Positions 2,286-16,509 of a DNA stretch of 64,000 nt are shown here, one piece after another. Each line of letters opens with the position of its first letter. Position 1 is the first letter of the stretch. The position numbers and the translations under genes were made by a program. The notes beneath the pieces are model-generated. The model was not told the DNA's origin. It saw nothing but the letters and a program-made list of their open reading frames with translations, and did not search any database. Origin of the DNA: an uncultured Pelagibacteraceae bacterium. Lineage in GTDB: Bacteria; Pseudomonadota; Alphaproteobacteria; Pelagibacterales; Pelagibacteraceae. The DNA lies in contig CACJOA010000001.1 in assembly GCA_902594915.1 (NCBI GenBank), positions 1 to 64,000 of the forward strand, in the 5' to 3' direction.

Positions 2286-2972
2286 ATGTTAGATCAAATA
2301 AATATAAACTCAAATGTTGAATTAGATTTAACCTTACTTATTTTAAATTTAGCTATTGGATTAATCATTTCCTTGATACTTAGATTTCACTATAGAAAGT
2401 ATGGTTCAACAATTACCAATAGAGACGAATTTAGCAATATATTTCCGTTTATAACACTCACTACAACATTAATTATTTCAATTGTAAAGTCTTCTTTAGC
2501 TCTATCTTTAGGTTTAGTTGGTGCTTTATCTATAGTTAGATTCAGGACGCCAATTAAAGAACCTGAAGAATTGGCATATCTTTTTATTTGTATAGCTGCA
2601 GGTCTTGGATATGGAGCTAACCAAACTGTAGCAACTACTGTTGCTATTATTTTTATTCTTATCTTTTTAACTTTGATAAAAATCAAAACATCTCAAATTA
2701 ATAATAAAAATATTTATTTAACTATTGAGACTTCTGATCCCGCAGATTTAGCAAAAAAAAACTTATCAGAGAGCTTTAATAAAATTTTGGAGAATGAAAA
2801 TGGAAATTATGATTTAAAAAGACTAGATATAACCGATGATTTAGTTCAAGTAACATACATACTTAATTTAAAAGATTTAAACAACTTGGAAAATATAATT
2901 CAAGCATTTAAAACAAAACATCCAAGAATAAAAATTAATTTTATTGATCAAAATCAAGTGCCAAGTATTTAA
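2286..2972 (+). CDS. DUF4956 membrane protein, first gene of a polyphosphate-polymerase operon
   Basis: A 228-residue inner-membrane protein. Hydrophobic helices are seen at about residues 13-36, 50-66, 69-84 and 97-125. The motif GLVGALSIVRFRTPIK at about 78-93 is the signature of the DUF4956 family, and a soluble domain of about 95 residues follows. In other bacteria DUF4956 genes are repeatedly found beside VTC-domain and CotH genes, and the same order is seen here. Only 15 bases separate it from the VTC gene. A role as membrane partner or conduit for the polymerase is inference. The start has no clear Shine-Dalgarno sequence. Confidence 0.8.
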   Translation: MLDQININSNVELDLTLLILNLAIGLIISLILRFHYRKYGSTITNRDEFSNIFPFITLTTTLIISIVKSSLALSLGLVGALSIVRFRTPIKEPEELAYLFICIAAGLGYGANQTVATTVAIIFILIFLTLIKIKTSQINNKNIYLTIETSDPADLAKKNLSESFNKILENENGNYDLKRLDITDDLVQVTYILNLKDLNNLENIIQAFKTKHPRIKINFIDQNQVPSI

Positions 2973-2987
2973 ATAATTAATTAAATT

Positions 2988-3677
2988 ATGTTTGATAAAG
3001 AGAATAGTAGATATGAAATTAAATTTATAACTCACGATACTAATTATTATCTATTAAAAAATTGGATAAGAATAAACGACTTAGTTCTCTCAAAAGAATA
3101 TGATAATAGAAAAATTAATAATATATATTTTGACACCCATAATTATACTGCCTATAAATCAAACATTTATGGAAACTCCTCGAGACTAAAGATAAGATAT
3201 AGATGGTATGGAAACTTTTTTGATAATAATTTAGGAAATTTAGAATTTAAGATTAAGAGAAATGTTTATGGCCACAAAGTAAGATTTCCAATAGAAAATT
3301 TAAAAATAAACAAGGAAATAAATTGGAAAAATATTATTTTAAAAATCAATCAAAATTTATCAGCAGAATATAAAAATATTTTTAATTCTCAATGTGTTCC
3401 GATGATAATAAATAAATATGAAAGAGAATATTATAAAAGTAAAAATCAAAAAGTTAGGGTTACTATTGATAAAGATATTTATAATTATGATCAGAGAAGA
3501 AATATAATAAAACCAAATCTTGATAATAAAACTTTTTCGCAAAAATACTTAGTAATCGAAATTAAATTTGATAGAAGTCATAAGAAATTTTTTGAAAATT
3601 TCTCAATTAATACAGCTATCAAATTAAGCAAAAATTCAAAATACATTAATGGTGTTAGAGCAGTCACAGGAATATAA
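2988..3677 (+). CDS. VTC-domain polyphosphate polymerase
   Basis: A 229-residue soluble VTC (vacuolar transporter chaperone) domain, the tunnel-fold polymerase that makes polyphosphate from ATP in yeast Vtc4. The basic and acidic tunnel residues are in place: R8-E10-K12 at the N-terminus (SRYEIKF), YFD at 47-49, R66-K68-R70 (RLKIR), E86-K88-K90 (LEFKIK), R146 in YEREYY, R157-T159-D161, E191-K193 (IEIKF), and K218-Y219 near the end. This pattern is what an active enzyme should show. It has no membrane segment, so membrane attachment would come from the DUF4956 neighbour. The CotH gene starts directly after its stop codon. Confidence 0.85.
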   Translation: MFDKENSRYEIKFITHDTNYYLLKNWIRINDLVLSKEYDNRKINNIYFDTHNYTAYKSNIYGNSSRLKIRYRWYGNFFDNNLGNLEFKIKRNVYGHKVRFPIENLKINKEINWKNIILKINQNLSAEYKNIFNSQCVPMIINKYEREYYKSKNQKVRVTIDKDIYNYDQRRNIIKPNLDNKTFSQKYLVIEIKFDRSHKKFFENFSINTAIKLSKNSKYINGVRAVTGI

Positions 3678-6293
3678 ATGAGATTTGAAAAGAAAAAAGA
3701 ACCCATAAAACTAGGAAAATTTAAAAAATATTCTTTTTATTTTATAATTATACTATTTTTTTTTATTCTAGGAATATGGACAGAGAAATATAACTTTGTT
3801 GCAAAACCTAAAATGATTATTCAAGAAATATCTCAAAAAGTTTATGAAAAGATAGTTCTAGAATATTTTGATGATAATCGATTAATTATAGACATTAATT
3901 ATAAAAATTTTCAAAAAATTGAAAAAGCAAGAGAAATTGGTTTAAAAAATGAACGTCTAAAGGATGAAGACTCTAAATGGGCAAATGCTAAATTAAAATA
4001 TGATGATGATGAATATAAAGTAAAAATTAGGCTAAAAGGCACTCATGGAGATCATTGGAGGCACCCATATAAATGGTCATTTAAGATAAAATTATCTAAT
4101 GATAAAACTATTTTTAATTTAAAAAGATTTTCTATTCAATCACCTCAAACTACATCTTTTTTGCATGAATGGTTATTTATGAAAGCTCTAAAAAAAGAAG
4201 GCCTGATCCATCACAGAGTAAAATTTGTTAATGTAATTATAAATGGAAATAAATTAGGATATTATATGTTAATAGAGCAAGCTTCCAAAAACTTAATTGA
4301 ATTTAACAAGAGAAGAGAAGGTCCTATAATCACTTTTAATAAAGATTTATGGATTGATGAATTTAATGCAAAAAAAAATCAACTCGGTATAAATACCGAA
4401 CTAGACAACTTTTGGAGGTCAAAAATTACTCCAGTTCAATTTAAGAATAAGAACCTAAATACTAATCAAGAAAAATACTTAAACAAAGCAATATTTCTGC
4501 TGGAGTCATTTAGAAATAAAGAATTAAAACCTAATGAAGTTTTTGATGTTTCACAATTAGCGAAATTTATGGCTCTTAAAGCAATATTTGGATCTATAGA
4601 ATTAGATACAAATGATTTAAAATTTTACTTTAATCCGGTAACAAGATTACTTGAACCGGTTGGAAAAGAAGTTCATACTAATCATAAAAAATTTCAGCAC
4701 TATAGTGGATGGGTGTTTAACCTAGAAAAGATAGTCTTGCCTTGGCAAAAACACTTTTTAAAAATTTTGTATGATGATAAAGATTTTTATGAATTATTTC
4801 TTAAAGAGCTATCGAATTTATCAAGCCAAAATTATATTCAAGATATTATAAATGAAAATATTAATGAATTTAATAGATATAAAAAAATTTTAAAAATAAA
4901 TCATCCATTTAAGGAAATAATTAACTTAGAAGATATAAACAATACAAAAGAATTTATAAAAGGTAGTTTAGACCCTGTGCAAAAAGTTAATGTAAATCTA
5001 ATTTCTTCAGAAAATAATAATTTAAAACTAAACATTAAAAATACTCAAGTCTTACCAGTTGAAATAATGGGACTAAAAAAAGATGATAAACAAATTTATT
5101 TTGATAGGCCCATTTTTGTAAAAGGATTGGAGCTTAATTCCTCTAATGACAAAAAACACATAAATATAGATTGCAAAAATATTACATGCTCAAGAAAAAA
5201 TATTAAGAATTTGGAAATTTTTTATAACATTTTAGGTCAAAAAAAACTTTATAGCAGCAAAATTGATTTCTGGTCAAACAGTAACCAATTTCAATCCTTT
5301 CAATCAAAGAATAGTTTAAAAACTTTAAAAAATTTAAAGATTATTGAAATTCAAGATGATAAAATTAATTTAAGATCCGATGAATGGATTATTGATCAAA
5401 AAATTATTATTCCAAAAAATTATAGATTTATAGTTTCGAAAAATACTAGGATTATATTTAAGGATAACGGCCAGTTAATTTCCCATTCTCCAATTTCATT
5501 TAATGGTTCAAAAAAAGAGCCAATATTTGTTTCTTCTAATTTTAAGGATGAAATCAATAGAAAAAGAAATGAAGCAGATAATTACAGTGGTCATGGTAGC
5601 GGAATACTAGTACTGAATACAAAAAAAAAATCTAATATAGATAATGTTATTTTTAACAAAATGTCTTCACCTCCTTTACAGGATGGTGAAGGGTCTTTAG
5701 GAGCAATTAATTTTTATCAGTCAGATGTTGATATAACAGGATCAAAATTTTTAAATAATATTAGAGGGGATGATTATATAAATATAATTAGATCTAATTT
5801 TTTAATTGATGATTGTTATTTTGAAAATACAAACTCCGACTCCATAGATTTAGATTTTAGTAATGGTATTATCAAAAACTCTGTTTTCAATAAGTCTATC
5901 AATGATGCAATTGATTTTTCAGGAAGTAAAGTAAATTTAATCAATGTTCAAATAGATAAAGCTGGAGATAAAGGAATTAGTATTGGGGAAGAAAGTCAAA
6001 TTGTTGCTAACGATATTAGTATTACAAACTCATTTATAGGTATTGCTAGTAAAGATAATAGTTTAGCAACACTTGATAAAATCGTAATTAATAATGTTGA
6101 AATAGGACTAGCTGCTTACACAAAAAAAAATGAGTATGGTCCAGCAAAAATAAATATTAATGATTTAAGTATATCAAATTCTAAAAAAGACTTTGTATCA
6201 GCAATTGGATCAGAAATTTATTTTAATGAAAAATTGATTAAAAATACGAATTGTAATAAGGATTTATCTAATTGCCCTTTTTTGAGTGATTAA
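3678..6293 (+). CDS. CotH-family protein fused to a C-terminal beta-helix, membrane anchored
   Basis: An 871-residue protein with a basic N-terminus, one membrane helix (about 18-36) and a large domain presumably outside the inner membrane. Residues about 60-420 match the CotH family, secreted atypical kinases first known from spore coats: RLKGTHGDHWRHPYKWSFKIK (118-138), the segment around GYYMLIEQ (194-201), and YFNPVTRLLEPVG (317-329). Where CotH proteins usually carry an aspartate pair after the IPWD-type motif, this one reads GKEVHTN. Residues about 560-865 contain repeated short Ile/Val/Asn-rich strands typical of a right-handed parallel beta-helix. The ATG follows the VTC stop with no gap, and the 3' end overlaps the opposing gene by 26 bases. 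Its substrate is unknown. Confidence 0.8.
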   Translation: MRFEKKKEPIKLGKFKKYSFYFIIILFFFILGIWTEKYNFVAKPKMIIQEISQKVYEKIVLEYFDDNRLIIDINYKNFQKIEKAREIGLKNERLKDEDSKWANAKLKYDDDEYKVKIRLKGTHGDHWRHPYKWSFKIKLSNDKTIFNLKRFSIQSPQTTSFLHEWLFMKALKKEGLIHHRVKFVNVIINGNKLGYYMLIEQASKNLIEFNKRREGPIITFNKDLWIDEFNAKKNQLGINTELDNFWRSKITPVQFKNKNLNTNQEKYLNKAIFLLESFRNKELKPNEVFDVSQLAKFMALKAIFGSIELDTNDLKFYFNPVTRLLEPVGKEVHTNHKKFQHYSGWVFNLEKIVLPWQKHFLKILYDDKDFYELFLKELSNLSSQNYIQDIINENINEFNRYKKILKINHPFKEIINLEDINNTKEFIKGSLDPVQKVNVNLISSENNNLKLNIKNTQVLPVEIMGLKKDDKQIYFDRPIFVKGLELNSSNDKKHINIDCKNITCSRKNIKNLEIFYNILGQKKLYSSKIDFWSNSNQFQSFQSKNSLKTLKNLKIIEIQDDKINLRSDEWIIDQKIIIPKNYRFIVSKNTRIIFKDNGQLISHSPISFNGSKKEPIFVSSNFKDEINRKRNEADNYSGHGSGILVLNTKKKSNIDNVIFNKMSSPPLQDGEGSLGAINFYQSDVDITGSKFLNNIRGDDYINIIRSNFLIDDCYFENTNSDSIDLDFSNGIIKNSVFNKSINDAIDFSGSKVNLINVQIDKAGDKGISIGEESQIVANDISITNSFIGIASKDNSLATLDKIVINNVEIGLAAYTKKNEYGPAKININDLSISNSKKDFVSAIGSEIYFNEKLIKNTNCNKDLSNCPFLSD

Positions 6294-7266
6294 TAAATTT
6301 TTTAGAAACTCTATAAATTATAAAGAAAAAAATAATTATGGAAATTACTATAATTAATTTTAATTTATTCAATACAATATATTTGTCTTTGATCTCAGCT
6401 CTAATTTTATTAACATTAGTAATATTTAATTTTTCCTCATTTTTAATAATAAGTTTTTTTGGTAATATCTCATAATCTTGATTAGTTACGAAATCACCGC
6501 TTACTAAAAATTTGTTGGTCTTCATGACATCTACGATCACAAAGCTTGCTTTTGGCTTACCATCTCCCATACCAATATTATATAAATCAATGTCTCCAAT
6601 TTTGTCCATCCAATAAATTAAATTTACATTTTGTTTTCCATAAAAATTATTATCACTTAAATCTCTAAAATATTGTCGTTTAGAGTTTCCAGCAAATATT
6701 GCTAAGACTTTATTTTTAATATGTGGATATATTTCTTGAAAGTAGTAACTTTTGTCGTGTGAATATTCTTTGCTATCAACAATACTATCATCCCAAATTC
6801 TATGATGTGTCAAAATAATATTAATTTTTCCATTTTGATTATTAAGGTTATTATTTAAAAATTCAATTATTTGATCTTTATTTTCAGAAGAGTTTAGTAA
6901 AATAAAATTTAAATTATCAGTTTGTAAAAATTTGTTTAGATATCCAATATTTTTGAGATAATCATTTTTAAATTTATCATTTGATAATTCCTGATTACCA
7001 GGAACAAAAAATAAATTTGAATTGATGCCCTTTTTAATCTGAGAAATAGTATCTTTTTGGTGTAAATTTGAATCGCCTAATATAAAAACATAATCAGCAT
7101 TATACTTATTAATCTTATTAAATAACTTGTTAAGAATTATTTTATCTTTTACAATTGGATACATATGGCCAATCAATATGAATCTTGTTTTTTTTTCATT
7201 GGCTAAAAGAATTCCGTTAAAAGATATGAAAAATGAAATTAAAAAAAAGGTGTATAATTTTTTCAT
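6268..7266 (-). CDS. Membrane-anchored calcineurin-like phosphoesterase-fold protein with degraded metal site
   Basis: A 332-residue protein with an N-terminal signal peptide (about 1-22) and a C-terminal membrane helix (about 300-320) followed by basic residues, so the body should face the periplasm. The order of motifs is that of metallophosphoesterases, but several ligands are changed. The first DxH reads IGH (32-34), GDxxN is kept (64-67), GNH(E/D) reads GNQE (90-93), the HH pair is kept (154-155), and the final GHxH reads GNSK (193-196). It may therefore bind rather than hydrolyse phosphate compounds. It converges on the CotH gene with a 26-base tail overlap. An enzyme with an unusual metal site cannot be excluded. 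Confidence 0.65.
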   Translation of the reverse strand: MKKLYTFFLISFFISFNGILLANEKKTRFILIGHMYPIVKDKIILNKLFNKINKYNADYVFILGDSNLHQKDTISQIKKGINSNLFFVPGNQELSNDKFKNDYLKNIGYLNKFLQTDNLNFILLNSSENKDQIIEFLNNNLNNQNGKINIILTHHRIWDDSIVDSKEYSHDKSYYFQEIYPHIKNKVLAIFAGNSKRQYFRDLSDNNFYGKQNVNLIYWMDKIGDIDLYNIGMGDGKPKASFVIVDVMKTNKFLVSGDFVTNQDYEILPKKLIIKNEEKLNITNVNKIRAEIKDKYIVLNKLKLIIVISIIIFFFIIYRVSKKFINHSKKGN

Positions 7267-7394
7267 TTTAAACTAATAAAATTAATTAAGAAACGCACAA
7301 ATAAGTAAATAGCATTTTGCATTCAAATTCTTGTTTTTATATTAGAATATTATAGAAATATAAACATGAAAAAATTCAAAAATATTTTTTTCTT

Positions 7395-7865
7395 ATGTCT
7401 GTTCATTTAAGTTCAAAAAAAGTTATAAAAGATTGGATTGATTATAATAATCATATGAATGTATCTTATTATCTTTTATTATTTGATAAATATGGTGCTG
7501 ATACCTTGAATAATATTTTTAAAATAGGTGAAAATTCAGCAAAAACTACTGGGAAAAGTACGATGATCGTGGAGTCTAACATTACTTATAATCAAGAACT
7601 TAAATTAAATGACGAAGTAGATATCAATCTAACTTTTTTTGACCATGACAAAAAAAGACTTCATTATAAAATGGAAATGTTGCACAAAGAAAAAAAATAC
7701 TTGGCCTCAACAATAGAGATACTTGCTCTTTACGTAAATTTGAATTCTAGAAAAGTAATCGAATTTGAGAAAGAAAAAATTGAAATTATGAAAAATTTTA
7801 TAAATAAATATAATTCAAAATTTAATAAAGACGGATTAAATTTTTTATCTAAATTAAAAAAGTAA
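7395..7865 (+). CDS. Hotdog-fold acyl-CoA thioesterase
   Basis: A 156-residue single hotdog domain. The N-terminal motif WIDYNNHMN (14-22), with catalytic-type Asp16 followed by NHMN, is that of the 4-hydroxybenzoyl-CoA/YbgC thioesterase group. WIDYNGHMN-type variants occur in betainyl- and related CoA thioesterases. These enzymes hydrolyse acyl-CoA thioesters in the cytoplasm. The exact substrate is not visible. The ATG at 7395 has no Shine-Dalgarno sequence. The gene meets DUF779 tail to tail with a gap of four bases. It is not obviously linked in function to its neighbours. Confidence 0.75.
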   Translation: MSVHLSSKKVIKDWIDYNNHMNVSYYLLLFDKYGADTLNNIFKIGENSAKTTGKSTMIVESNITYNQELKLNDEVDINLTFFDHDKKRLHYKMEMLHKEKKYLASTIEILALYVNLNSRKVIEFEKEKIEIMKNFINKYNSKFNKDGLNFLSKLKK

Positions 7866-7869
7866 AAAG

Positions 7870-8217
7870 TTAATTTATTGATGTGTCTTCTGGTATACAG
7901 ATTTCTGATCTTGTTAAAAATCTTTTTCCAGTTCCGTTGTCTAATGAAAACATTCCGCCCATTCCATCAACACAATCAATTATGAGATCGGTGTTTTTCC
8001 AAGCTGTATGTTGAGTTTCACTGATATAAAAAGGGATCCCGCCTATTTTACCAATCAGCACATCGTCTTGACCAACTTGATATTCTTTTGCTGGATAACA
8101 CATTGGAGCACTGCCATCACAACATCCGCCAGATTGATGAAATAATAATTCTTTACCGTGACTCTTTTTTAATTCTTCTATTAAATCTAATGCTGAAGGT
8201 GTTGCAGTAACTTTCAT
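7870..8217 (-). CDS. DUF779 protein, partner of the aldehyde dehydrogenase
   Basis: A 115-residue protein of the DUF779 family. It shows the characteristic QSGGCCDGSAPMC segment with Cys32, Cys33 and Cys40, followed by a GGIPFYIS stretch. DUF779 genes are regularly found directly beside acetaldehyde-type aldehyde dehydrogenases, as here, but their role is not established. The three cysteines suggest metal binding or redox chemistry, which is inference. It lies 45 bases downstream of the dehydrogenase on the same strand. A perfect 9-bp hairpin occupies that spacer and ends seven bases before the start codon. Confidence 0.85.
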   Translation of the reverse strand: MKVTATPSALDLIEELKKSHGKELLFHQSGGCCDGSAPMCYPAKEYQVGQDDVLIGKIGGIPFYISETQHTAWKNTDLIIDCVDGMGGMFSLDNGTGKRFLTRSEICIPEDTSIN

Positions 8218-8224
8218 ATTTATA

Positions 8225-8248
8225 TGGCCCGTATTTTATTACGGGCCA
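8225..8248 (-). other. Perfect 9-bp hairpin between aldehyde dehydrogenase and DUF779
   Basis: TGGCCCGTA and TACGGGCCA flank a six-base A+T loop. The stem is GC-rich and sits inside an apparent operon, right before the DUF779 start codon. There is no T run after it on the minus strand. It may stabilise the upstream mRNA, weaken read-through, or occlude the DUF779 ribosome site; the sequence does not decide which. Confidence 0.55.
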
Positions 8249-8262
8249 CTATAATATATCTA

Positions 8263-9813
8263 TTAAAAGAAGCCTAACTTTTTCTCACTGTAAGACACGT
8301 GTAAGTTTTTCACTTGTCTGTAATGATTTAGCATCATTTTGTGAGTTTCTCTTCCGATACCAGATTGTTTGTATCCACCAAATGCCGCATGCGCAGGATA
8401 AGCATGGTAACAGTTCGTCCAAACTCTACCAGCTTGGATTTCTCTACCCATTCTGTATGCGATATTTCCATTTCTTGTCCAAACACCAGCTCCTAAACCA
8501 TAAAGAGTATCGTTAGCAATTTTTAATGCCTCTGCCTCATCTTTAAATTTAGTTACTGATACTACTGGTCCGAAAATTTCTTCTTGGAAGATTCTCATTG
8601 AATTATTACCTTCGAAAATAGTTGGTTCAATATAATTTCCTTTTTCTAAACCACTATTAACTTTAGCAACATTTCCACCACATAGAACTTTGGCACCCTC
8701 TTTCTTACCTAAATCTAAGTAAGATTTGATTTTTTCCATTTGTTCTACGGACGCTTGAGCACCTATCATAGTTTCCATTTTTAGAGGATTGTCTTGTTTA
8801 ACAGCTTTTGTTCTAGCAATAGCTCTTTCCATGAATTTATCATAGATAGACTCTTGAACTAGTACTCTACTTGGACAAGTACAAACTTCTCCTTGGTTAA
8901 GCGTGAACATTGCAAAACCTTCTAAACATTTATCAAAGAAATCGTCATCTTGTGCCATAACATCTTCAAAGAAAATATTTGGAGATTTTCCGCCCAACTC
9001 TAAAGTAATTGGAATTAAGTTTTGAGATGCATATTGCATAATCAAACGACCAGTTGTTGTTTCACCTGTAAAAGCAATCTTTTTGATTCTCTTAGATGAG
9101 GCTAATGGTTTTCCTGCTTCTAAACCAAAACCACTTACAACGTTAACAACTCCTGGAGGTAATAAATCACCTATCATTTCCATTAATAACATAATAGAGG
9201 CTGGAGTTTGTTCAGCTGGTTTTAGTACTACACAGTTACCTGCAGCTAATGCTGGAGCAAGTTTCCAAGTTGCCATTAAAAGTGGGAAGTTCCAAGGTAT
9301 GATCTGTCCAACTACACCTAGTGGCTCTGGTATATGATAAGAATATTCATTATTACTTATCTCTGCAACAGAACCTTCTTCAGCTCTTATTACACCGGCA
9401 AAATATCTCCAGTGGTCAACCACTAAAGGCAAATCTGCAGCCATACATTCTCTAATAGGTTTTCCATTATCTAAACATTCTGCTGTAGCTAATGTGTTAA
9501 GATTTTTTTCTATAACATCCGCTATTTTCAATAAAATGTTAGATCTTTCAGTTATTGAAGTCTTTCCCCAAGTTGGAAATGCAGCATGCGCAGCATCTAA
9601 AGCTGCATCTACATCTTTAGCATCTGATCTTGCTATTTTGCAAATTACCTCGTTGTTAATCGGCGTAACATTATCAAAATATTTACCAGATTTAGGCTCA
9701 ACAAATTTTCCGTTTATATAATTTCCATATTTAGCTTTATATGGAAACGGAACTTTTAAGTGAGACGTATCCAACAAAGGAGACGAAGCACTTTTCATCG
9801 TTTCTGTACTCAT
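8263..9813 (-). CDS. Aldehyde dehydrogenase, ExaC/AldB (acetaldehyde) type
   Basis: A 516-residue NAD-dependent aldehyde dehydrogenase, counted from the ATG at 9811-9813. Landmarks: IIPWNFP (Asn175), KPAEQTP (Lys198), general base Glu272 in LELGGKSP, catalytic Cys311 in NQGEVCTC, and the EEIFGPV motif. The doubled CTC after NQGEV and the DUF779 neighbour are typical of acetaldehyde/ExaC-type enzymes that oxidise short aldehydes to acids. I chose this start because AAGGAG lies seven bases upstream and the family normally begins here. The frame stays open for another 63 codons upstream, encoding a strikingly lysine-rich stretch described separately, so a 579-residue form is possible. Confidence 0.88.
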
Positions 9814-10002
9814 TTTTTTTACTCCTTTTGTTTGTTTAGTTGATTTTAGCTTATTATTTTTTCTAGATTTTTTAGAACGTTTCTTAGTCGCAGACTTTTT
9901 TGTCACAACTTTTCTTCGTTTTATTTTGATTCTAGAAGACTTGACCAATTTTTTTTTTTTTTTCTTGGTCTTTTTATTTGCTATTTTTTTTTTAATAGCC
10001 AT
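9814..10002 (-). other. Lysine-rich in-frame N-terminal extension of the aldehyde dehydrogenase
   Basis: Sixty-three codons, open from an ATG at 10000-10002 and in frame with the dehydrogenase, encode a peptide with 28 lysines and 5 arginines, beginning [18 protein letters not shown] and continuing with [14 protein letters not shown]. It looks like a histone H1-like tail. Codons such as GCG, CGT, CGA, ACC and GTC give it more G+C than the true intergenic DNA next to it, which favours translation. Against this, its ATG has no Shine-Dalgarno sequence, while a good one serves the internal start. It could be a real tail, an alternative isoform, or a chance opening in an A-rich strand. The remaining bases 10003-10139 up to the next gene are A+T-rich and show nothing I can name. 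Confidence 0.45.
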
Positions 10003-10139
10003 AGGGCATTTAACTAAAAAAAAAGAAAATTTTCTATTTCTAAAAATGTTTATTTTCTACCTAGAATTGAATATATTACTAGATATAGTGTTTAAAATCT
10101 TTTTAATTACAATTTTTTTAATTCTAATAAAAGCTAATC

Positions 10140-11048
10140 ATGGACATAAATTTTTTTAAAAAAGTAAGAGTAATGGACGGTGGCATGGGCCAAGAACTTC
10201 TCGCAAGGGGAATGGCACCTAATGGTACTCTCTGGAGCGCGAATGCTTTGCTTAAGGAAAAATACCATAAATTAATGTTGAACACTCACTTAGACTTTGT
10301 AAAGGCTGGGGCTGAGATAATTGTAACTACAACATTTGCCACAAGAAAATTGCGATTAAAAGATAATAATGTTTTAGATAAGTTTGAATATTTAAACAAA
10401 AAAGCAGGTGAAATTGCTTTAAAAGTAAAAAAATTTTATCCCAAAATTTTAATTGCTGGTGGTTTACCTCCTCAAAATTTAACATATAAAGCAGACGATA
10501 GAGATAAAGAAGTAATTAGAGAAAATTTTTTAAGCCAAGCTAGAATTCTTGACCCATATATTGATTTTTTTTATATGGATGTTTTAAGTAGTGTTAGAGA
10601 ATTTGAGATAGCTATTGATTGCACAAAAGAGTTTAATAAACCGTATTTATTAGGTGCACATATTTCTCAAGGAACTAATTTGCCAAGTGGAGAGAAAATC
10701 TCAGATATTATGAAGAATATTAAGGATGAAAAAATACTTGGAATTATACTGTCATGTATTTCTCCAGAAAATTATGAAATTAATCTTAAAGAAATAAAAA
10801 AATTGGGAATTCCATTTGGTTTTAAACTAAATGCGTTTGTAAGAACCAATCCTAAACCTAATTATTCATCCTCTTATAAAAATATGAAAAAAGTTAATCC
10901 GAATGAATTTCTTGGTGTACGAAAAGATTTAACACCTGATAAAATGTTTAAATTTGCAAAAAAATTTAAAGAGGCAGGTGCTACAATTATTGGAGGTTGT
11001 TGCGAAACAAGACCCTCGCATATTAGAGCTTTCTCAAAACTTAAATAA
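10140..11048 (+). CDS. Homocysteine S-methyltransferase family protein
   Basis: A 302-residue single-domain zinc methyltransferase of the BHMT/MmuM family. It opens with MDGGMGQEL (from residue 12), contains VTTTFATRKLRL, and has the zinc cysteines: one in ILSCISPENY and the pair in IGGCCETRPSHIRA near the C-terminus. Such enzymes move a methyl group from betaine, S-methylmethionine or a related donor to homocysteine to make methionine. The donor cannot be told from sequence. The gene is divergent from the aldehyde dehydrogenase and overlaps the tail of the DMT exporter by eight bases. I looked for a SAM-binding leader and saw none. Confidence 0.82.
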   Translation: MDINFFKKVRVMDGGMGQELLARGMAPNGTLWSANALLKEKYHKLMLNTHLDFVKAGAEIIVTTTFATRKLRLKDNNVLDKFEYLNKKAGEIALKVKKFYPKILIAGGLPPQNLTYKADDRDKEVIRENFLSQARILDPYIDFFYMDVLSSVREFEIAIDCTKEFNKPYLLGAHISQGTNLPSGEKISDIMKNIKDEKILGIILSCISPENYEINLKEIKKLGIPFGFKLNAFVRTNPKPNYSSSYKNMKKVNPNEFLGVRKDLTPDKMFKFAKKFKEAGATIIGGCCETRPSHIRAFSKLK

Positions 11049-11928
11049 ATTTAGCTTTATCTGCTGCTTTAACAAAATAGATACCAATAATAACAGCGAT
11101 TAGAGAGATTAAAACTTTCATTGTTATTAATTCCTTTAAAAAAATATAACTCAGTATTGTACCAAAAATAGGGATAAGATAGGAAACTTGAGATTGAAAT
11201 ATTAAACCATTGTTGACTAAAATTTTAAATCTTAATAACCATGCTATACCTGTTGAGACAAATCCTAAATAAATAACTGAAATAGTTGAGTCTAATCTTG
11301 GAATAGTTTTCCAAGGTTGCTCAATAAAAAAAGCTAAGGGAAATAAAATTAAAACTGCCCAAATCAATATAGAACCAGTAACATTTTCATTTTTTTTTCT
11401 GCTTATCTTTAATGTTAAGACACCTCCTATCACGTAACATGTTGAGCCAAGTAAAATTAGCAACGCAGAGAAAAAATTATTCTCATCGATTAATAAGTTG
11501 TCAGAAAATAAATAAATTATTCCAGAAAAGCCAATCATTATTCCAAATGTTTTCATAAAGTTAAACTTTTCATTTTTAGTATAAAAATGTCCTAGTATTG
11601 TAGAGCTTAAAGGAGTCGTTGACATAAGTATTGCTGCTAGGTTGCTCTGAACCGACTTAACTCCATAAGCTATTAAAAAAAAAGGTATAACTAAATTAAT
11701 TAAACCAATTAAAGCAAACCAATACCAATCCTTTGAAAATGCCTCAATCTTTATTCTTTTTAAGTAACAAAGTAATAAAACAGGTATTGCGCCAAAAAAA
11801 ACCCTCAAAAAAGCAATCGTTAATGAGCCGAAAGAAAAAGTAGCAATTTTGATATTAAAAAAAGCTGATGCCCATATTAATGCTAACAATGTTAATAATA
11901 AATAATCTAAAAATTTTGGTTGTTTCAT
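11041..11928 (-). CDS. DMT (EamA) family transporter
   Basis: A 295-residue membrane protein with about ten hydrophobic helices arranged as two EamA repeats, the standard drug/metabolite transporter layout. It starts with a short cytoplasmic lead, MKQPKFLDYLLLTLLALIW, and the first repeat contains the usual ASAFF motif after the first helix. Family members export amino acids, nucleobases or other small metabolites; the substrate is not visible. Its start overlaps the end of the YbaK gene by four bases (ATGA), so the two form an operon. Its tail overlaps the homocysteine methyltransferase gene by eight bases. Confidence 0.85.
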   Translation of the reverse strand: MKQPKFLDYLLLTLLALIWASAFFNIKIATFSFGSLTIAFLRVFFGAIPVLLLCYLKRIKIEAFSKDWYWFALIGLINLVIPFFLIAYGVKSVQSNLAAILMSTTPLSSTILGHFYTKNEKFNFMKTFGIMIGFSGIIYLFSDNLLIDENNFFSALLILLGSTCYVIGGVLTLKISRKKNENVTGSILIWAVLILFPLAFFIEQPWKTIPRLDSTISVIYLGFVSTGIAWLLRFKILVNNGLIFQSQVSYLIPIFGTILSYIFLKELITMKVLISLIAVIIGIYFVKAADKAKFI

Positions 11929-12410
11929 TCAATAATATCTGTGATTATACCTTTTGTTATTTTTTCTAACTCATTAAAACTTATCTTAAAAACACAATTA
12001 GGATGTCCAGCAGCTGCATACAAATTATTAAATCTTTTTAAAGATCCATCGATAACTATTTCTATTTTATTCAAATGAGCTATTGGTGAAACACCACCAA
12101 TAGTAAAGCCAGTGCATACTTTTACTTCATCTGCTGAGGCCATTACTGCATCTTTTATATTTAATCTTTTTTTAATTTTATTTAATGAACCTTTTTTATC
12201 TCCAGCAATTAAACACATTGTAAATGTATTTTCTGTTTTGAATAATAAACTTTTGATTATTGCTCCAATTTCACAACCTAAGGACGAGGCCGCTTCCTTA
12301 GCGGTCCTAGCAGAACTTTCTAAAACTATTATTTTTTGATTTTGGTCAAATTTTTTTAAGATTTTCTCTACTCTATTAACAGGCTCTTTGTCTAATAAAC
12401 TCATTTTCAA
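11925..12410 (-). CDS. YbaK/EbsC-family aminoacyl-tRNA deacylase
   Basis: A 161-residue YbaK-type editing domain. It shows the conserved KSLLFK strand (residue about 55), GDKKGSL, CTGFTIGGVSP and a C-terminal NNLYAAAGHP segment. These free-standing domains remove wrongly attached amino acids from tRNA, typically Cys-tRNA(Pro) or Ala-tRNA(Pro), in the cytoplasm. The GGVSP and AAGHP segments carry the substrate-recognition residues of the family. It heads a two-gene operon with the DMT exporter and is divergent from glnA. Exact tRNA specificity cannot be read from the sequence. Confidence 0.82.
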   Translation of the reverse strand: MKMSLLDKEPVNRVEKILKKFDQNQKIIVLESSARTAKEAASSLGCEIGAIIKSLLFKTENTFTMCLIAGDKKGSLNKIKKRLNIKDAVMASADEVKVCTGFTIGGVSPIAHLNKIEIVIDGSLKRFNNLYAAAGHPNCVFKISFNELEKITKGIITDIIE

Positions 12411-12544
12411 CCCAAAATTGATGGTTATTTATTTAATTTAATTATACAATTATGTAATAAATGCATAGGTGTTATTAAGTAAAAGAGCATTATTTATCAG
12501 TCTTTTTTTGATATCACAAGTCCGAGAATTACACAGGAGTTTTA

Positions 12545-13951
12545 ATGAGCACAAATGATGTATTAAAAACTATTAAAGACAAAGATATTGAATACGTTGA
12601 TCTGAGATTTACTGATCCAAGAGGAAAACTTCAACATGTTACCATGGATAGCAAAATGGTAGATGAAGATATGTTAAACGAAGGGATTTTTTTTGATGGA
12701 TCTTCTATAGCAGGCTGGAAAGCTATCAATGAGTCAGATATGATTCTTAAACCTGATACTGCTAGAGCGATTGTAGACCCTTTTACATCACATAATACTT
12801 TAAATCTTTTTTGTGATGTTCTTGACGCTATAAAAAAAGATTCTTATGAAAGAGATCCAAGAGGAACTGCGAAAAAAGCAGAAGCCTTCTTAAAAAGTTC
12901 TGGCATAGGAGATAAAGCTTTTTTTGGTCCCGAGGCAGAATTTTTTGTATTCGATGATGTAAGATTCAAAAATGATATGAATGAAACTAGTTTTAAGATT
13001 GATAGTAGAGAAGGCCCATACAATTCAGGTAAAGAATATGAAAATGGAAACATGGGTCATAGACCTGGGATAAAGGGAGGATATTTCCCTGTTCCTCCTG
13101 TTGATAGTGAACAAGATATGAGAAGTGAATATTTAAAAGCTATGAGAGATATGGGTATTAAAGTAGAAAAACATCACCACGAAGTTGCTCCTAGTCAACA
13201 TGAACTAGGTATGTATTTTGGAACATTAGTTGATCAAGCGGATAATTTACAACTTTATAAATATGCTGTCCATATGGTTTCTCACTCATTCGGAAAAACC
13301 GCTACATTTATGCCAAAACCTGTAAAAGGTGATAATGGTTCTGGAATGCACGTTCATATGTCTATTTGGAAAGGAGATAATGCTTTATTTTCTGGAGAAA
13401 AATATTCGGGGTTATCAGATTTAGCGCTGCATTATATAGGTGGAATTTTAAAACATGCAAAAGCAATTAATGCTTTTTCAAATGCAACAACAAACAGTTA
13501 TAAAAGATTAATACCAGGTTTTGAAGCTCCAGTCTTGCTTGCATACTCTGCAAGAAATAGATCGGCTTCATGCAGAATACCAATAACATTAAGTAAAAAA
13601 GCGGCAAGATGCGAAGTTAGATTTGGAGATGCAGCAGGAAATCCTTATTTAACATTTGCTGCTATGTTAATGGCAGGGTTAGACGGAATTAAAAATAAAA
13701 TTGATCCGGGAAAAGCTTTTGATAAAGATCTTTACGCGTTATCTGAATCTGAGGTTAAAAAAATCCCAACAGTCTGTGGTTCTTTAAGAGAGGCTATGGA
13801 AAGTCTTGACAAAGACAGAGATTTTTTAAAACAAGGCAATGTATTTACTGATGATCAAATTGATGCATACATAGCATTAAAGTTTGAGGAAATTCACAAT
13901 TTTGAACACACACCTCATCCAATAGAATTTGAAATGTACTATAGTTGTTAA
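12545..13951 (+). CDS. glnA: Glutamine synthetase type I
   Basis: A 468-residue type I glutamine synthetase, the usual length. It makes glutamine from glutamate, ammonia and ATP. Visible motifs are FDGSSIAGW in the N-terminal domain, [11 protein letters not shown], the GYFPVPPVD loop, [11 protein letters not shown] and the ATP-site NGSGMHVH. Tyr397 lies in [10 protein letters not shown], the position adenylylated in GlnE-regulated enzymes, so that control is plausible. AGGAG at 12535-12539 lies five bases before the ATG. The 134-base upstream gap to ybaK contains no riboswitch or operator that I can recognise. The gene stands alone and faces the small 60-codon gene. Confidence 0.97.
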
Positions 13952-13953
13952 GA

Positions 13954-14136
13954 CTATTGGTACTTAGTTTGATTTGTAGAGGCAATTTTATTTTTATTTA
14001 GACCCTTTTTTACAACATAATCTTGGGTTCCATTTGCTCCTACATCTACAGATTTAATCAGTGATCTAAACAAAGACTTTCTTTTTTCTTTCTTATCCTC
14101 TGATTTTAACAGATTTTTAAATTCAAATAGATTCAT
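13954..14136 (-). CDS. Small hypothetical protein, 60 residues
   Basis: I do not recognise this protein. It is hydrophilic and basic, with a charged N-terminal half (KSEDKKEKRKS at 11-21) and a GANGTQDYVVKKG segment (about 33-45) that does not look like random A+T-rich translation. Support for the gene comes from a promoter with a perfect TATAAT ending six bases before its ATG, which suggests a leaderless mRNA. It ends two bases from the glnA stop and starts 57 bases past the end of sufA, so it may also be read with the suf operon. It could still be a chance frame. Confidence 0.5.
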   Translation of the reverse strand: MNLFEFKNLLKSEDKKEKRKSLFRSLIKSVDVGANGTQDYVVKKGLNKNKIASTNQTKYQ

Positions 14137-14142
14137 AAGAGA

Positions 14143-14171
14143 ATTATAATTTATATATGCATTTTATGCAA
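14143..14171 (-). promoter_or_regulatory. Promoter for the 60-codon gene, leaderless type
   Basis: On the minus strand a perfect TATAAT (14148-14143) follows a TTGCAT element (14171-14166) at a spacing of 17 bases. Transcription would start about at the A of the ATG at 14136. The -35 match is weak (3 of 6), and a short TGCAT/ATGCA inverted repeat overlaps it. Confidence 0.45.
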
Positions 14172-14193
14172 TACAGATATGTTCAAAATGGGA

Positions 14194-14526
14194 TTATACT
14201 TTGAACGATTCTCCGCAACCACAACGCTCTGTCTCATTTGGATTATTAAAAACAAACGATGATGAAAAATCTCCTTTTTTGTAGTCCATTTCAGTACCTA
14301 AAAGATACATAATTGCTGCGGGATCAATAAAAACTTTAACTCCTTTATCTTCAATAACCTCATCGTTTTGATTAAATTTTTTTAAATATTCCATAACATA
14401 TGACATCCCAGCACAACCTCCCGATTTTATCGAAACTCTTACGCCCAAAGCTTCTTTCTCCGCATTAGCCATAATTTCTTTTAATTTCTTCGCTGCATTA
14501 TCACTTAATTTTATTATAGGTTTCAT
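14194..14526 (-). CDS. sufA: A-type Fe-S carrier protein (HesB/IscA/SufA family)
   Basis: A 110-residue A-type carrier, which takes newly made Fe-S clusters to target apoproteins. The three required cysteines are present: Cys38 in SGGCAG and Cys102/Cys104 in the C-terminal CGCGESF. Length and motif spacing are standard for the family. It is the last gene of the suf operon and its start overlaps the end of the DUF59 gene by one base. SufA is assigned by context rather than by features that would separate it from IscA or ErpA. Confidence 0.88.
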   Translation of the reverse strand: MKPIIKLSDNAAKKLKEIMANAEKEALGVRVSIKSGGCAGMSYVMEYLKKFNQNDEVIEDKGVKVFIDPAAIMYLLGTEMDYKKGDFSSSFVFNNPNETERCGCGESFKV

Positions 14527-14822
14527 TATAAATTTAGTTCCAATTTAGCTGCATCTGACATCATATCCTTTGACCAGGGTGGATCCCAGACTAATTCTAA
14601 ATCAACATTATCTATTCCCTCAACTTGCATAACACCGTCTTTAACTTCTTTTGGCAAGCTCTCGGCAACAGGGCAATTTGGTGTAGTTAAAGTCATCTTA
14701 ATCTTTGCTTTTTTTTCAACAATTTGAATATCGTAAATTAAACCAAGATCATATATGTTCACAGGAACCTCTGGATCGTAAATTTTTTTTATCTCTAAAA
14801 CTATTTTTTCTTTTAACTCCAT
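14526..14822 (-). CDS. sufT: DUF59/MIP18-family Fe-S assembly protein (SufT-like)
   Basis: A 98-residue DUF59 domain protein. It opens with the family pattern DPEVPVNIYDLGLIYDI (16-32) and later shows TLTTPNCPVAESLP, with the conserved cysteine of the PaaD/MIP18 group. In suf operons this protein is called SufT and helps Fe-S cluster maturation under high demand. Here it lies between the NifU-like scaffold (gap of five bases) and the A-type carrier (one-base overlap), which supports that role. It lacks any fused domain. Confidence 0.85.
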   Translation of the reverse strand: MELKEKIVLEIKKIYDPEVPVNIYDLGLIYDIQIVEKKAKIKMTLTTPNCPVAESLPKEVKDGVMQVEGIDNVDLELVWDPPWSKDMMSDAAKLELNL

Positions 14823-14827
14823 AAGTA

Positions 14828-15292
14828 TTATTCCTCCGTACTAACTTCTTTACCATCATTATTCATGGCAGAAATTAAGGTATGCCATGATAATGTAGCA
14901 CATTTAACTCTCATAGGATATTGTTTTACACCTGATAAGCACATTAATTTAGTTTTTTCATCATCTTTTAAAATATTTGATTTGAGATCGGGGTTTTCTT
15001 TTATCATTCCTAAAAAGTCTTCTATAATTTCTTTAGCTTCATTATCACTCTTACCTTTTATTAAATCTGTCATAATTGAAGCTGACGCCATTGAAATAGC
15101 ACAGCCTTTACCCTCAAAAGATATATCCTCCACTTTTCTTTGACTATTTAGTTTCAAGTAAATATGTACATCATCGCCACATAAAGGGTTATTTCCTTTG
15201 GCATCTTTATTAAAATTTTTAGTTATACCTAAATTTCTAGGATTTTTACCATGTTCTAAAATAATCTCTTGGTAAAGTTCTTTTAATTTCAT
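14828..15292 (-). CDS. sufU: SufU/NifU-like Fe-S assembly protein
   Basis: A 154-residue IscU-fold protein. The three ligand cysteines are in the typical SufU setting: NPLCGDD (Cys38), LMCLSGVKQYP, and VKCATLSW near the C-terminus. SufU either serves as scaffold or, as a zinc protein, accepts sulfur from SufS. The extended region between the second and third blocks matches SufU rather than IscU. Its start overlaps the end of sufS by four bases, so the two are translationally coupled and probably work as a pair. No SufE gene is seen in the operon, consistent with SufU acting as the SufS partner. Confidence 0.88.
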   Translation of the reverse strand: MKLKELYQEIILEHGKNPRNLGITKNFNKDAKGNNPLCGDDVHIYLKLNSQRKVEDISFEGKGCAISMASASIMTDLIKGKSDNEAKEIIEDFLGMIKENPDLKSNILKDDEKTKLMCLSGVKQYPMRVKCATLSWHTLISAMNNDGKEVSTEE

Positions 15293-16509
15293 TTTAGCTC
15301 AAAAATTTTTTTACAATTTTTTATTCCCTCATTTAATTTATCTAAATCATCTTTAGTATTATAAACACCTAAAGATGCTCGTGCACTTGCAGAAATACCT
15401 AATTTATCATGAAGAATTTGACAACAGTGATGACCTGCTCTAATAGCTACACCACTTTCATCTAAAATCGTTGCAATATCATGTGGATGAACTCCTTCAA
15501 CAGTGAAAGATAATACTCCACCACGTTCTTTAGGATTTCCTATCAGTTTTACAGAATTATTCTTTTTTAAGATTTCTTGACCATATTCTATTAATTCTTT
15601 TTCATGTTCAATTATCTTTTCAATTCCAATGCTCTCTAAAAATTTTATCGATTGATCAAAAGCAATTACTTGTGCTGTGGCCATTGTACCGGCTTCATAT
15701 TTATTTGGAAGTTCACCATAAGAAATTCTATCTTTTTTTACTTCATTTATCATTCCACCACCTCCCTGGTATGGCGGAAGTTGCTCTAACCATTTTTTTT
15801 TTCCATACAAAACTCCAAGTCCTGTTGGGCCATACATTTTATGACATGAAATTGCATAAAAATCACAATCCAAATCTTGCATATCTAATTTTAAATGTGG
15901 TCCCCCTTGACATCCATCAACTACCACAACGATACCTTTGGAATGGGCTAATTGTGTTATTTCTTTAATTGGTAAAACTGCACCGGTAACATTAGATAAA
16001 TGTGTTATTGCTATTACTTTAGTATTATTAGTAATTTCTTTCTCTATATTTTCAATCGGTATGTCTCCATCTTCATTTATTTCTGCAAACTTTATTTTGA
16101 TATTTTTAGATTTTCTTAAAAAATGCCATGGAACATAATTTGAATGATGCTCTAATTCAGTAATTAAAATTTCATCATTTGGCTTTAAGATTGCTTGACC
16201 TAGAGTATTTGCAACTAAATTTAAAGCCTCGGTAGCACCTTTAGTAAATACAATTTCATTTTTGTCTTTCGCATTTATGTATTTTTGCACTGATGACCTT
16301 GTATTTTCATACAAATTAGTGGCTGCAACTGCTAAGTAATGAATACTTCTACCTACATTTGAAAATTGTTTAGAGTAAAAATCATTAATTCTATCTAGAA
16401 CCACCTTGGGTTTTTGAGATGAATTAGCACTATCCAAATAAACCAAATCATTATTTTGAATTTTTTCATCAAAAATTGGAAATTCTTTTTTAATATTATT
16501 TATATTCAT
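15289..16509 (-). CDS. sufS: Cysteine desulfurase SufS
   Basis: A 406-residue PLP enzyme of the group II cysteine desulfurases, which take sulfur from cysteine for Fe-S cluster assembly. Landmarks: LEHHSNYVPWH (His cofactor stack), the PLP lysine in SCHKMYGPTG (about residue 225), and the active-site cysteine in RAGHHCCQ (about 356-363), where a pair of cysteines follows the histidines. It overlaps sufD upstream and sufU downstream by four bases each. Length and motif set are normal for SufS. Confidence 0.95.
   Translation of the reverse strand: MNINNIKKEFPIFDEKIQNNDLVYLDSANSSQKPKVVLDRINDFYSKQFSNVGRSIHYLAVAATNLYENTRSSVQKYINAKDKNEIVFTKGATEALNLVANTLGQAILKPNDEILITELEHHSNYVPWHFLRKSKNIKIKFAEINEDGDIPIENIEKEITNNTKVIAITHLSNVTGAVLPIKEITQLAHSKGIVVVVDGCQGGPHLKLDMQDLDCDFYAISCHKMYGPTGLGVLYGKKKWLEQLPPYQGGGGMINEVKKDRISYGELPNKYEAGTMATAQVIAFDQSIKFLESIGIEKIIEHEKELIEYGQEILKKNNSVKLIGNPKERGGVLSFTVEGVHPHDIATILDESGVAIRAGHHCCQILHDKLGISASARASLGVYNTKDDLDKLNEGIKNCKKIFELK

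Follow-up and report, generated by a model that had tools for sequence, protein, structure and literature searches.

A DUF4956–VTC–CotH/Beta-Helix Gene Unit in the SAR11 Family as a Candidate System for Polyphosphate Synthesis and Export

Gene Content of the Locus

The first 64,000 nucleotides of contig CACJOA010000001.1, from an uncultured Pelagibacteraceae bacterium (assembly GCA_902594915.1; this whole stretch is hereafter "the window"), carry a locus of four genes. Three of them, on the plus strand, encode a DUF4956 membrane protein, a VTC domain protein and a membrane-anchored CotH/beta-helix protein (together, the module), and the fourth, which faces them, encodes a phosphoesterase-fold protein (PEF). 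The source genome amounts to 1.05 Mb in 28 contigs and is 88.6% complete. The original prediction for this DNA, made from the sequence alone, had described this four-gene layout, and a recheck returned the same coordinates, strands and gaps: 15 bases separate DUF4956 from VTC and none separate VTC from CotH, and the convergent CotH (plus) and PEF (minus) genes share 26 bases at their 3' ends. The features are as follows (pLDDT, predicted local distance difference test).

2286–2972, plus strand: DUF4956 membrane protein (PF16316, E-value 7e-17; structure model with pLDDT 86)
2988–3677, plus strand: VTC domain protein, a predicted cytosolic polyphosphate polymerase (PF09359, E-value 1e-32; Vtc4 found by profile; conserved Vtc4 positions)
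3678–6293, plus strand: CotH/beta-helix protein with an N-terminal membrane anchor at residues about 15–38 (family profile and structure model)
3870–5051, plus strand: CotH kinase fold, residues 65–458 of the CotH/beta-helix protein (5jd9, Z-score 27.5; alignment columns)
5307–6263, plus strand: right-handed beta-helix, residues 544–862 of the same protein, with a conserved Asp/Lys/Glu/Ser stripe (AlgG 4ozy, Z-score 27.2; invariant positions)
6268–7266, minus strand: PEF protein, with an N-terminal signal-like segment (residues 3–22) and a C-terminal membrane segment (residues 294–325), an optional gene (family profile)

One Unit in the SAR11 Family

The three plus-strand genes form one unit. 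VTC was found in 33 of 197 SAR11-family genomes (12 of the 77 good ones), where 41 match rows correspond to 38 loci (three genes being split over two rows), i.e., the window and 37 fetched stretches. CotH is present at all 38. It overlaps VTC or lies at most 28 bases away, L046 being the one exception, with a pyrophosphatase gene in between. DUF4956 is found at 34 of them, the remaining four (L034, L043, L047 and L064) being cut by contig ends, and for L034 the DUF4956 gene turns up on a different contig, at its end (L094). The order in the 34 complete loci is DUF4956–CotH–VTC in 31 cases and DUF4956–VTC–CotH in three (the window, L041, and L057 with CotH facing). At the genome level, 36 of the 197 genomes have DUF4956 and 31 of these also have VTC (Fisher p 1e-28), which amounts to 31/33 genomes with VTC versus 5/164 without. 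Those five (G052, G119, G171, G188 and G195) were rejected as true exceptions, since four end at contig ends and G195 runs into N. Independent occurrence of the genes in relatives had been named beforehand as an observation that would speak against the unit; when the comparison was run, DUF4956, VTC and CotH proved not to be independent of each other.

Beside the module genes, four loci (L031, L032, L033 and L035) hold a protein of ~340 residues with an N-terminal membrane segment, encoded between DUF4956 and CotH (and cut in L034 and L094); one member was run against Pfam and gave no family match.

The VTC and DUF4956 Proteins

The VTC protein of the window (229 residues) matches PF09359 over almost its full length (114 bits versus a cut-off of 23, E-value 1e-32). 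This is the only family above cut-off, with neither SPX nor a fused transmembrane domain, and the VTC family profile finds yeast Vtc4 at 7.6e-14. Mapped via the profile alignment, nine checked Vtc4 positions (K200, R264, R266, K281, K294, R361, E426, S457 and K458) correspond to K12, R70, R72, K88, K97, R146, E191, S217 and K218 of the window protein, each of them invariant in 35/35 SAR11-family VTC proteins. In a wider set of 22 VTC sequences, all nine are invariant except S217, which is kept in at least 90%. Among these positions, K200, K281, K294, R361, S457 and K458 of Vtc4 are presumably tunnel or metal residues, and the earlier statement that the tunnel residues are intact agrees with the 9/9 positions kept. 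According to passages of PMC9911596, yeast VTC was inactivated by changing R264, R266 and E426 at once. Since all nine positions are kept and the source genome (88.6% complete) yields no match to PPK1 and none to PPK2, polyphosphate appears the likeliest product of the VTC protein.

Within the family, PPK1 is found in 79 of the 197 genomes, i.e., 6/33 with VTC versus 73/164 without (p 0.006, phylogeny not corrected). With the same qualification, PPK1 and VTC tend toward mutual avoidance.

The DUF4956 protein matches PF16316 at 62.1 bits versus a cut-off of 30.6 (E-value 7e-17). All 82 relatives aligned also match this family, and in 82 sequences G79, A80, L81, S82, R85, R87 and G106 are invariant. 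In its structure model (pLDDT 86), the membrane helices come first and a ferredoxin/ACT-like domain (residues about 139–227) forms the C-terminus. Fold matches are confined to this C-terminal domain, a very common fold, and the DUF4956 profile gave no match among the sequences of solved structures.

The CotH/Beta-Helix Protein

Run alone against Pfam, the CotH/beta-helix protein of the window matches no family. Its relatives are more telling: 8/35 family members match PF08757 and 5/35 match a beta-helix model, and the family profile finds the solved CotH of B. cereus at 2.7e-15. In the predicted structure (mean pLDDT 78), residues 65–458 of the window protein match the CotH kinase 5jd9 (Z-score 27.5, root-mean-square deviation 3.4, 329 residues), Foldseek also giving CotH (E-values 1.3e-11 and 3.3e-11), and residues 544–862 match right-handed beta-helices, e.g., AlgG 4ozy (Z-score 27.2, root-mean-square deviation 3.2, 282 residues). 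The family matches to PF08757, the profile and the model thus bear out the original CotH/beta-helix call, which nevertheless needs one correction, the catalytic Asp of CotH kinases being absent from the domain.

According to passages of PMC7821199, the D228Q and D251A variants of B. subtilis CotH are inactive. Across 132 VTC-linked CotH domains (a count that includes organisms reached through two collections, with L064 = L102 and L091 = L127), the place of D228 holds His in 117 and Glu in 9 (including the window) and never Asp, the remaining six having another residue (5) or a gap (1), this column being set by sequence alignment with an insertion nearby and the Asp228 of B. cereus being placed via its 23-residue spacing to Asp251. 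At the place of D251, Asp stands in 111 domains, Glu in 16 (including the window) and another residue or a gap in 5. The window protein has Glu308 and Glu331 at the two places, respectively. Because His (Glu in the window) replaces an essential Asp, ordinary kinase activity of VTC-linked CotH appears doubtful.

Fifteen of the 20 nearly invariant family positions are in the beta-helix, the kinase fold having the fully invariant E200, and when 15 sequences of SAR11 and other proteobacteria are aligned over a 150-residue piece of the beta-helix, 19 columns do not vary. This concentration of invariant positions points to a binding or active site in the beta-helix.

A second CotH-domain protein, of ~430–610 residues and devoid of a beta-helix, follows DUF4956 in L137, L141, L133, L162 and L125 (flavobacteria and Agaribacillus).

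Distribution beyond SAR11

A scan of a genome collection with the beta-helix alignment returned 319 relatives, the best 80 of which were analysed. Their hosts are Pelagibacteraceae, Prochlorococcus (AG-347-N23 and MIT 9314), many Bacteroidota, Planctomycetota, Omnitrophota, Patescibacteria, Magnetococcales, SAR324, Spirochaetes, Woesearchaeota and others, and the best four matches of the window beta-helix among named genomes belong to Pelagibacteraceae/Pelagibacter (L099–L102), which bears out the assignment to SAR11 in the original prediction. VTC is found at 61 of the 80 loci, DUF4956 at 61 and both at 53. Among the 46 loci flanked on each side by more than 2.5 kb, the corresponding figures are 38, 43 and 38, with DUF4956 alone in five (L118, L129, L132, L144 and L172) and neither partner in three (L122, L168 and L171). 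Moreover, across 72 loci the distances computed for the three proteins are correlated (rho 0.75, 0.78 and 0.83, versus at most 0.22 in 500 permutations each), common descent accounting for part of this correlation.

L140, from a metagenome-assembled genome of Kordiimonadaceae, holds two DUF4956, three VTC and three beta-helix genes within 11.4 kb (4031–15444), as if duplicated. In L085 (G233), an HlyD-type secretion protein comes after a VTC–DUF4956 pair, and a large upstream gene runs through N.

Pyrophosphatases with Export Signals and the Optional PEF Gene

A soluble pyrophosphatase (PF00719, above cut-off) occurs in just 3/197 SAR11-family genomes, each time inside the module locus. In L050 it is fused to the CotH protein, following the beta-helix; in L046 its gene separates CotH from VTC; and in L051 it comes immediately after VTC. 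All three genomes fall among the 33 with VTC (p 0.004, the in-locus position not being counted). The two stand-alone proteins (L046 and L051) start with hydrophobic signal-like segments, and the L050 domain is part of a CotH/beta-helix protein that itself starts with such a segment. In the flavobacterial loci L133 and L162, a pyrophosphatase with a lipobox-like cysteine (predicted lipoprotein) is encoded 54 and 0 bases before the PEF gene, which is followed by beta-helix, VTC and DUF4956. Positions E45, K53, E55, R73, Y84, D99, D101, D104, D130, D135 and K137 are invariant in the four stand-alone pyrophosphatases, and we take them to include family I active-site residues. Such enzymes are treated as cytoplasmic or soluble in a review (PMC11210485). 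Predicted export of the enzymes found here, one of them fused to CotH, is new evidence for phosphoanhydride chemistry outside the cytoplasm and strengthens the proposal of export and attachment.

The PEF protein of the window, searched alone, has no Pfam family and weak NCBIfam matches (0.04), but 18/22 family members match PF00149 at E ≤ 0.01, the window protein not being among them, and the PEF profile finds Rv0805 at 1.7e-9. This profile has matches at 3/38 SAR11-family loci (the window, L064 and L051) and at 24/80 scanned loci, three of them Pelagibacteraceae, a total that includes L127 (with canonical metal motifs, two genes off; its twin is L091), L123 (part of a 988-residue protein) and L102 (same contig as L064). 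A single-sequence search finds PEF in 2/197 SAR11-family genomes, both times in the locus, L051 being found by profile only. In the other SAR11 cases seen (L051, L064, L099 and L101), PEF is on the same strand as the module, and once (L158, residues 522–761) it is fused to a CotH domain. In view of its recurrence at the locus and of this fusion, the idea that PEF is a chance facing neighbour was rejected.

The metal-binding motifs of calcineurin-like enzymes are DxH, GD, GNH, H and GHxH. PEF proteins keep GD and one His, the first Asp and GHxH are replaced in 21/21 aligned sequences, and GNH reads GNQ or GNN in the SAR11 rows. Their N-terminus is usually signal-like, with a lipobox-like motif in 11/26. 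Hence, the phosphoesterase fold given in the original prediction holds at the level of the family profile, with the correction that the fourth gene is optional and its metal motifs are partly changed.

Genomic Setting of the Module

In the window, the module is flanked by a GYD-domain gene (1810–2133) on one side and by a thioesterase-like/DUF779/aldehyde dehydrogenase group (7395–10002) on the other. The locus occupies a variable site, because two relatives have the flanks without module genes between them, and the gap differs in both content and length: in G606 (L211), ~0.58 kb separate an aldehyde dehydrogenase and a GYD protein from a DUF779 protein and an aldehyde dehydrogenase, and in G594 (L212) the same flanks are ~3.3 kb apart. 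A promoter search at the locus gave no excess (35 found versus 44.6 in shuffles), and four terminator-like sites were found, inside genes, versus 0.6 in shuffles.

A Model of Polyphosphate Synthesis and Export, and Its Alternatives

How might these proteins work together? We propose, with a probability of about one half, that the module is a prokaryotic polyphosphate synthesis-and-export system. First, VTC would join the terminal phosphate of ATP into cytosolic polyphosphate, as its conserved residues suggest. Second, DUF4956 might pass the chain across the cytoplasmic membrane and, by analogy, would do as a separate subunit the job of the membrane part of eukaryotic VTC. Third, the membrane-anchored CotH/beta-helix protein might receive the chain outside, where it would be a phosphate donor for, or become attached to, a surface polymer that the beta-helix holds. 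Finally, PEF and, in some genomes, the exported pyrophosphatase may act on short chains and pyrophosphate, judging from predicted export and domain identity. The predicted membrane sides fit export, because none of 108 VTC proteins has a predicted membrane segment and 107/114 CotH/beta-helix proteins have an N-terminal hydrophobic one. The linkage of the three genes in SAR11 and in other lineages, the pyrophosphatases with export signals, the recurrence of PEF and the lower frequency of PPK1 in VTC genomes also count in its favour. Of the original reading (polyphosphate made at the membrane, then exported or attached), the unit and the likeliest product now stand; export and attachment, although strengthened, keep their conditional form.

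Several observations weigh against this model. In the fold search, the membrane part of the DUF4956 model had no match among solved structures, so that the channel is a proposal. Judging from the alignment columns, VTC-linked CotH is a CotH fold without the standard catalytic Asp. For PEF, "phosphoesterase" appears to be a label for the fold and not for an activity, because two of the usual metal-binding motifs are replaced. Most SAR11-family loci have neither pyrophosphatase nor PEF. Eight of the 46 well-flanked beta-helix loci are without adjacent VTC, three of them also without DUF4956; VTC is found elsewhere in 7/8 of these genomes, that of L122 alone having no VTC match. Lastly, periplasmic synthesis of polyphosphate is said not to occur in bacteria (passages of PMC7250820), and SAR11 is said not to store the polymer (passages of PMC4525184).

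The strongest competitor, which we nonetheless hold to be unlikely, is that the module modifies or regulates a surface polymer with no export of polyphosphate: the CotH/beta-helix protein would act on an exopolysaccharide or on its secretion proteins, and VTC and DUF4956 on cytosolic or membrane phosphate only. It draws on the Pel clusters of streptococci, clostridia and bifidobacteria, which, as passages of PMC7112168 report, adjoin CotH, poly-phosphate polymerase and DUF4956 genes and for which phosphorylation-based regulation is suggested there, as well as on the resemblance of the beta-helix to polysaccharide-acting enzymes. Sugar-nucleotide or glycosyltransferase genes also occur in 14/37 SAR11-family and 21/80 scanned loci. 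Yet the former proportion does not differ significantly from the 3/20 of arbitrary SAR11-family stretches (p 0.13; 20 stretches from five complete genomes, including two that have the module at another place), and the same search finds no such gene within the 64 kb of the window. With 0/7 for GYD-gene stretches and 0/3 for window pieces in addition, the link to polysaccharide islands in SAR11 was rejected as support. Moreover, polymer modification leaves the pyrophosphatases outside the cytoplasm unexplained.

Rather improbable, in our view, is a phosphate store outside the cytoplasm, in which exported polyphosphate would be a reserve, returned as phosphate by PEF or pyrophosphatase and re-imported, as a contribution to the phosphate buffer that SAR11 and Prochlorococcus keep in the periplasm or outside the cell. 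Such a buffer, not explained by phosphate-specific transport, is described in passages of PMC4525184 and PMC7250820, and the module is present in both groups. In three alphaproteobacterial loci (L087, L088 and L090), VTC stands without a CotH match, and in the two tested (2/2) it is flanked by DUF4956 and a Pho4-type phosphate transporter, with a phytase-like protein in one. However, VTC is found in just 33/197 SAR11-family genomes, although the buffer is described as generic, and a module this infrequent in SAR11 cannot underlie it in general. Furthermore, the buffered phosphate consists, according to passages of PMC7250820, of unphosphorylated ions from seawater, and a store has no need of a kinase-fold/beta-helix protein.

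The least probable alternative makes VTC a tunnel metalloenzyme whose exported product is something else, for instance a modified nucleotide, pyrophosphate or other short phosphates. This would suit the fusion of CotH to a pyrophosphatase and not to a polyphosphatase, as well as the diverse reactions under a common mechanism described for such enzymes in PMC4641920, but it sits poorly with a near full-length PF09359 match and 9/9 checked Vtc4 positions kept.

Returning to polyphosphate export, a more specific version of it, which we offer as speculation with low odds, makes VTC-linked CotH a class of extracytoplasmic phosphotransferase using exported polyphosphate in place of ATP. The near-invariant His would take the phosphate, the beta-helix with its Asp/Lys/Glu stripe would present the acceptor glycan or protein, and DUF4956–VTC would supply the donor; the clade of the window, with Glu instead of His, would be a variant. 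If true, this would explain how bacteria and archaea can phosphorylate extracellular molecules in surroundings devoid of ATP.

Comparison with Known Systems

For DUF4956, the nearest comparison is MgtC: 14/82 DUF4956 proteins weakly touch the MgtC model at E ≤ 0.01, and the C-terminal domain of an MgtC (2lqj) is among the fold matches, but the matches shown fall under the Pfam cut-off and the C-terminal fold is very common. With the spore-coat kinase CotH of B. subtilis and B. cereus, the module protein shares the fold and an acidic residue at the Asp251 place (127/132), but it differs by His or Glu, never Asp, at the Asp228 place, by its beta-helix and by its predicted location outside the membrane.

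The original statement that DUF4956–VTC–CotH linkage is known from other bacteria is confirmed by the Gram-positive Pel clusters, in which the same three families are contiguous (passages of PMC7112168). There, however, they are the accessory set of a polysaccharide locus, with a function that is not settled, and those passages, by whose description the comparison is made, mention no beta-helix, pyrophosphatase or PEF. A Clostridium perfringens locus also lists VTC and CotH genes (passages of PMC2879425). A search of Creative Commons-licensed PubMed Central papers (preprints not included) gave no account of PEF, of a pyrophosphatase exported from such a locus, of a beta-helix joined to the CotH domain, of His at the Asp228 place or of how widely the module occurs.

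Vacuoles and acidocalcisomes provide an analogy, in that the product side of VTC there also has a calcineurin-like enzyme and a family I pyrophosphatase. The former is Ppn1 of yeast, which we take to be a vacuolar endopolyphosphatase, and acidocalcisomal pyrophosphatases are among the matches of the L051 enzyme. Nevertheless, this is an analogy only, since cytosolic pyrophosphatases score higher for the L051 enzyme and PEF is without two of the metal motifs.

Finally, the module shares with the eukaryotic VTC complex (yeast Vtc1/Vtc3/Vtc4) a VTC catalytic domain in which the nine checked positions are kept, but the bacterial protein has neither SPX nor a fused membrane part, and its partners are DUF4956 and the CotH/beta-helix protein. 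Synthesis coupled to membrane passage is demonstrated for the yeast complex in passages of PMC9911596, and the same coupling is our proposal here; the module may thus work like the eukaryotic complex without being a member of it. If so, it would be a compact prokaryotic counterpart of eukaryotic VTC, giving polyphosphate a planned place outside the bacterial or archaeal cytosol and supplying extracellular phosphorylation with a donor of phosphate. It makes testable the statement that bacteria do not make polyphosphate in the periplasm (passages of PMC7250820), and it offers a working hypothesis for many genes now named DUF4956, "VTC domain" or "CotH kinase".

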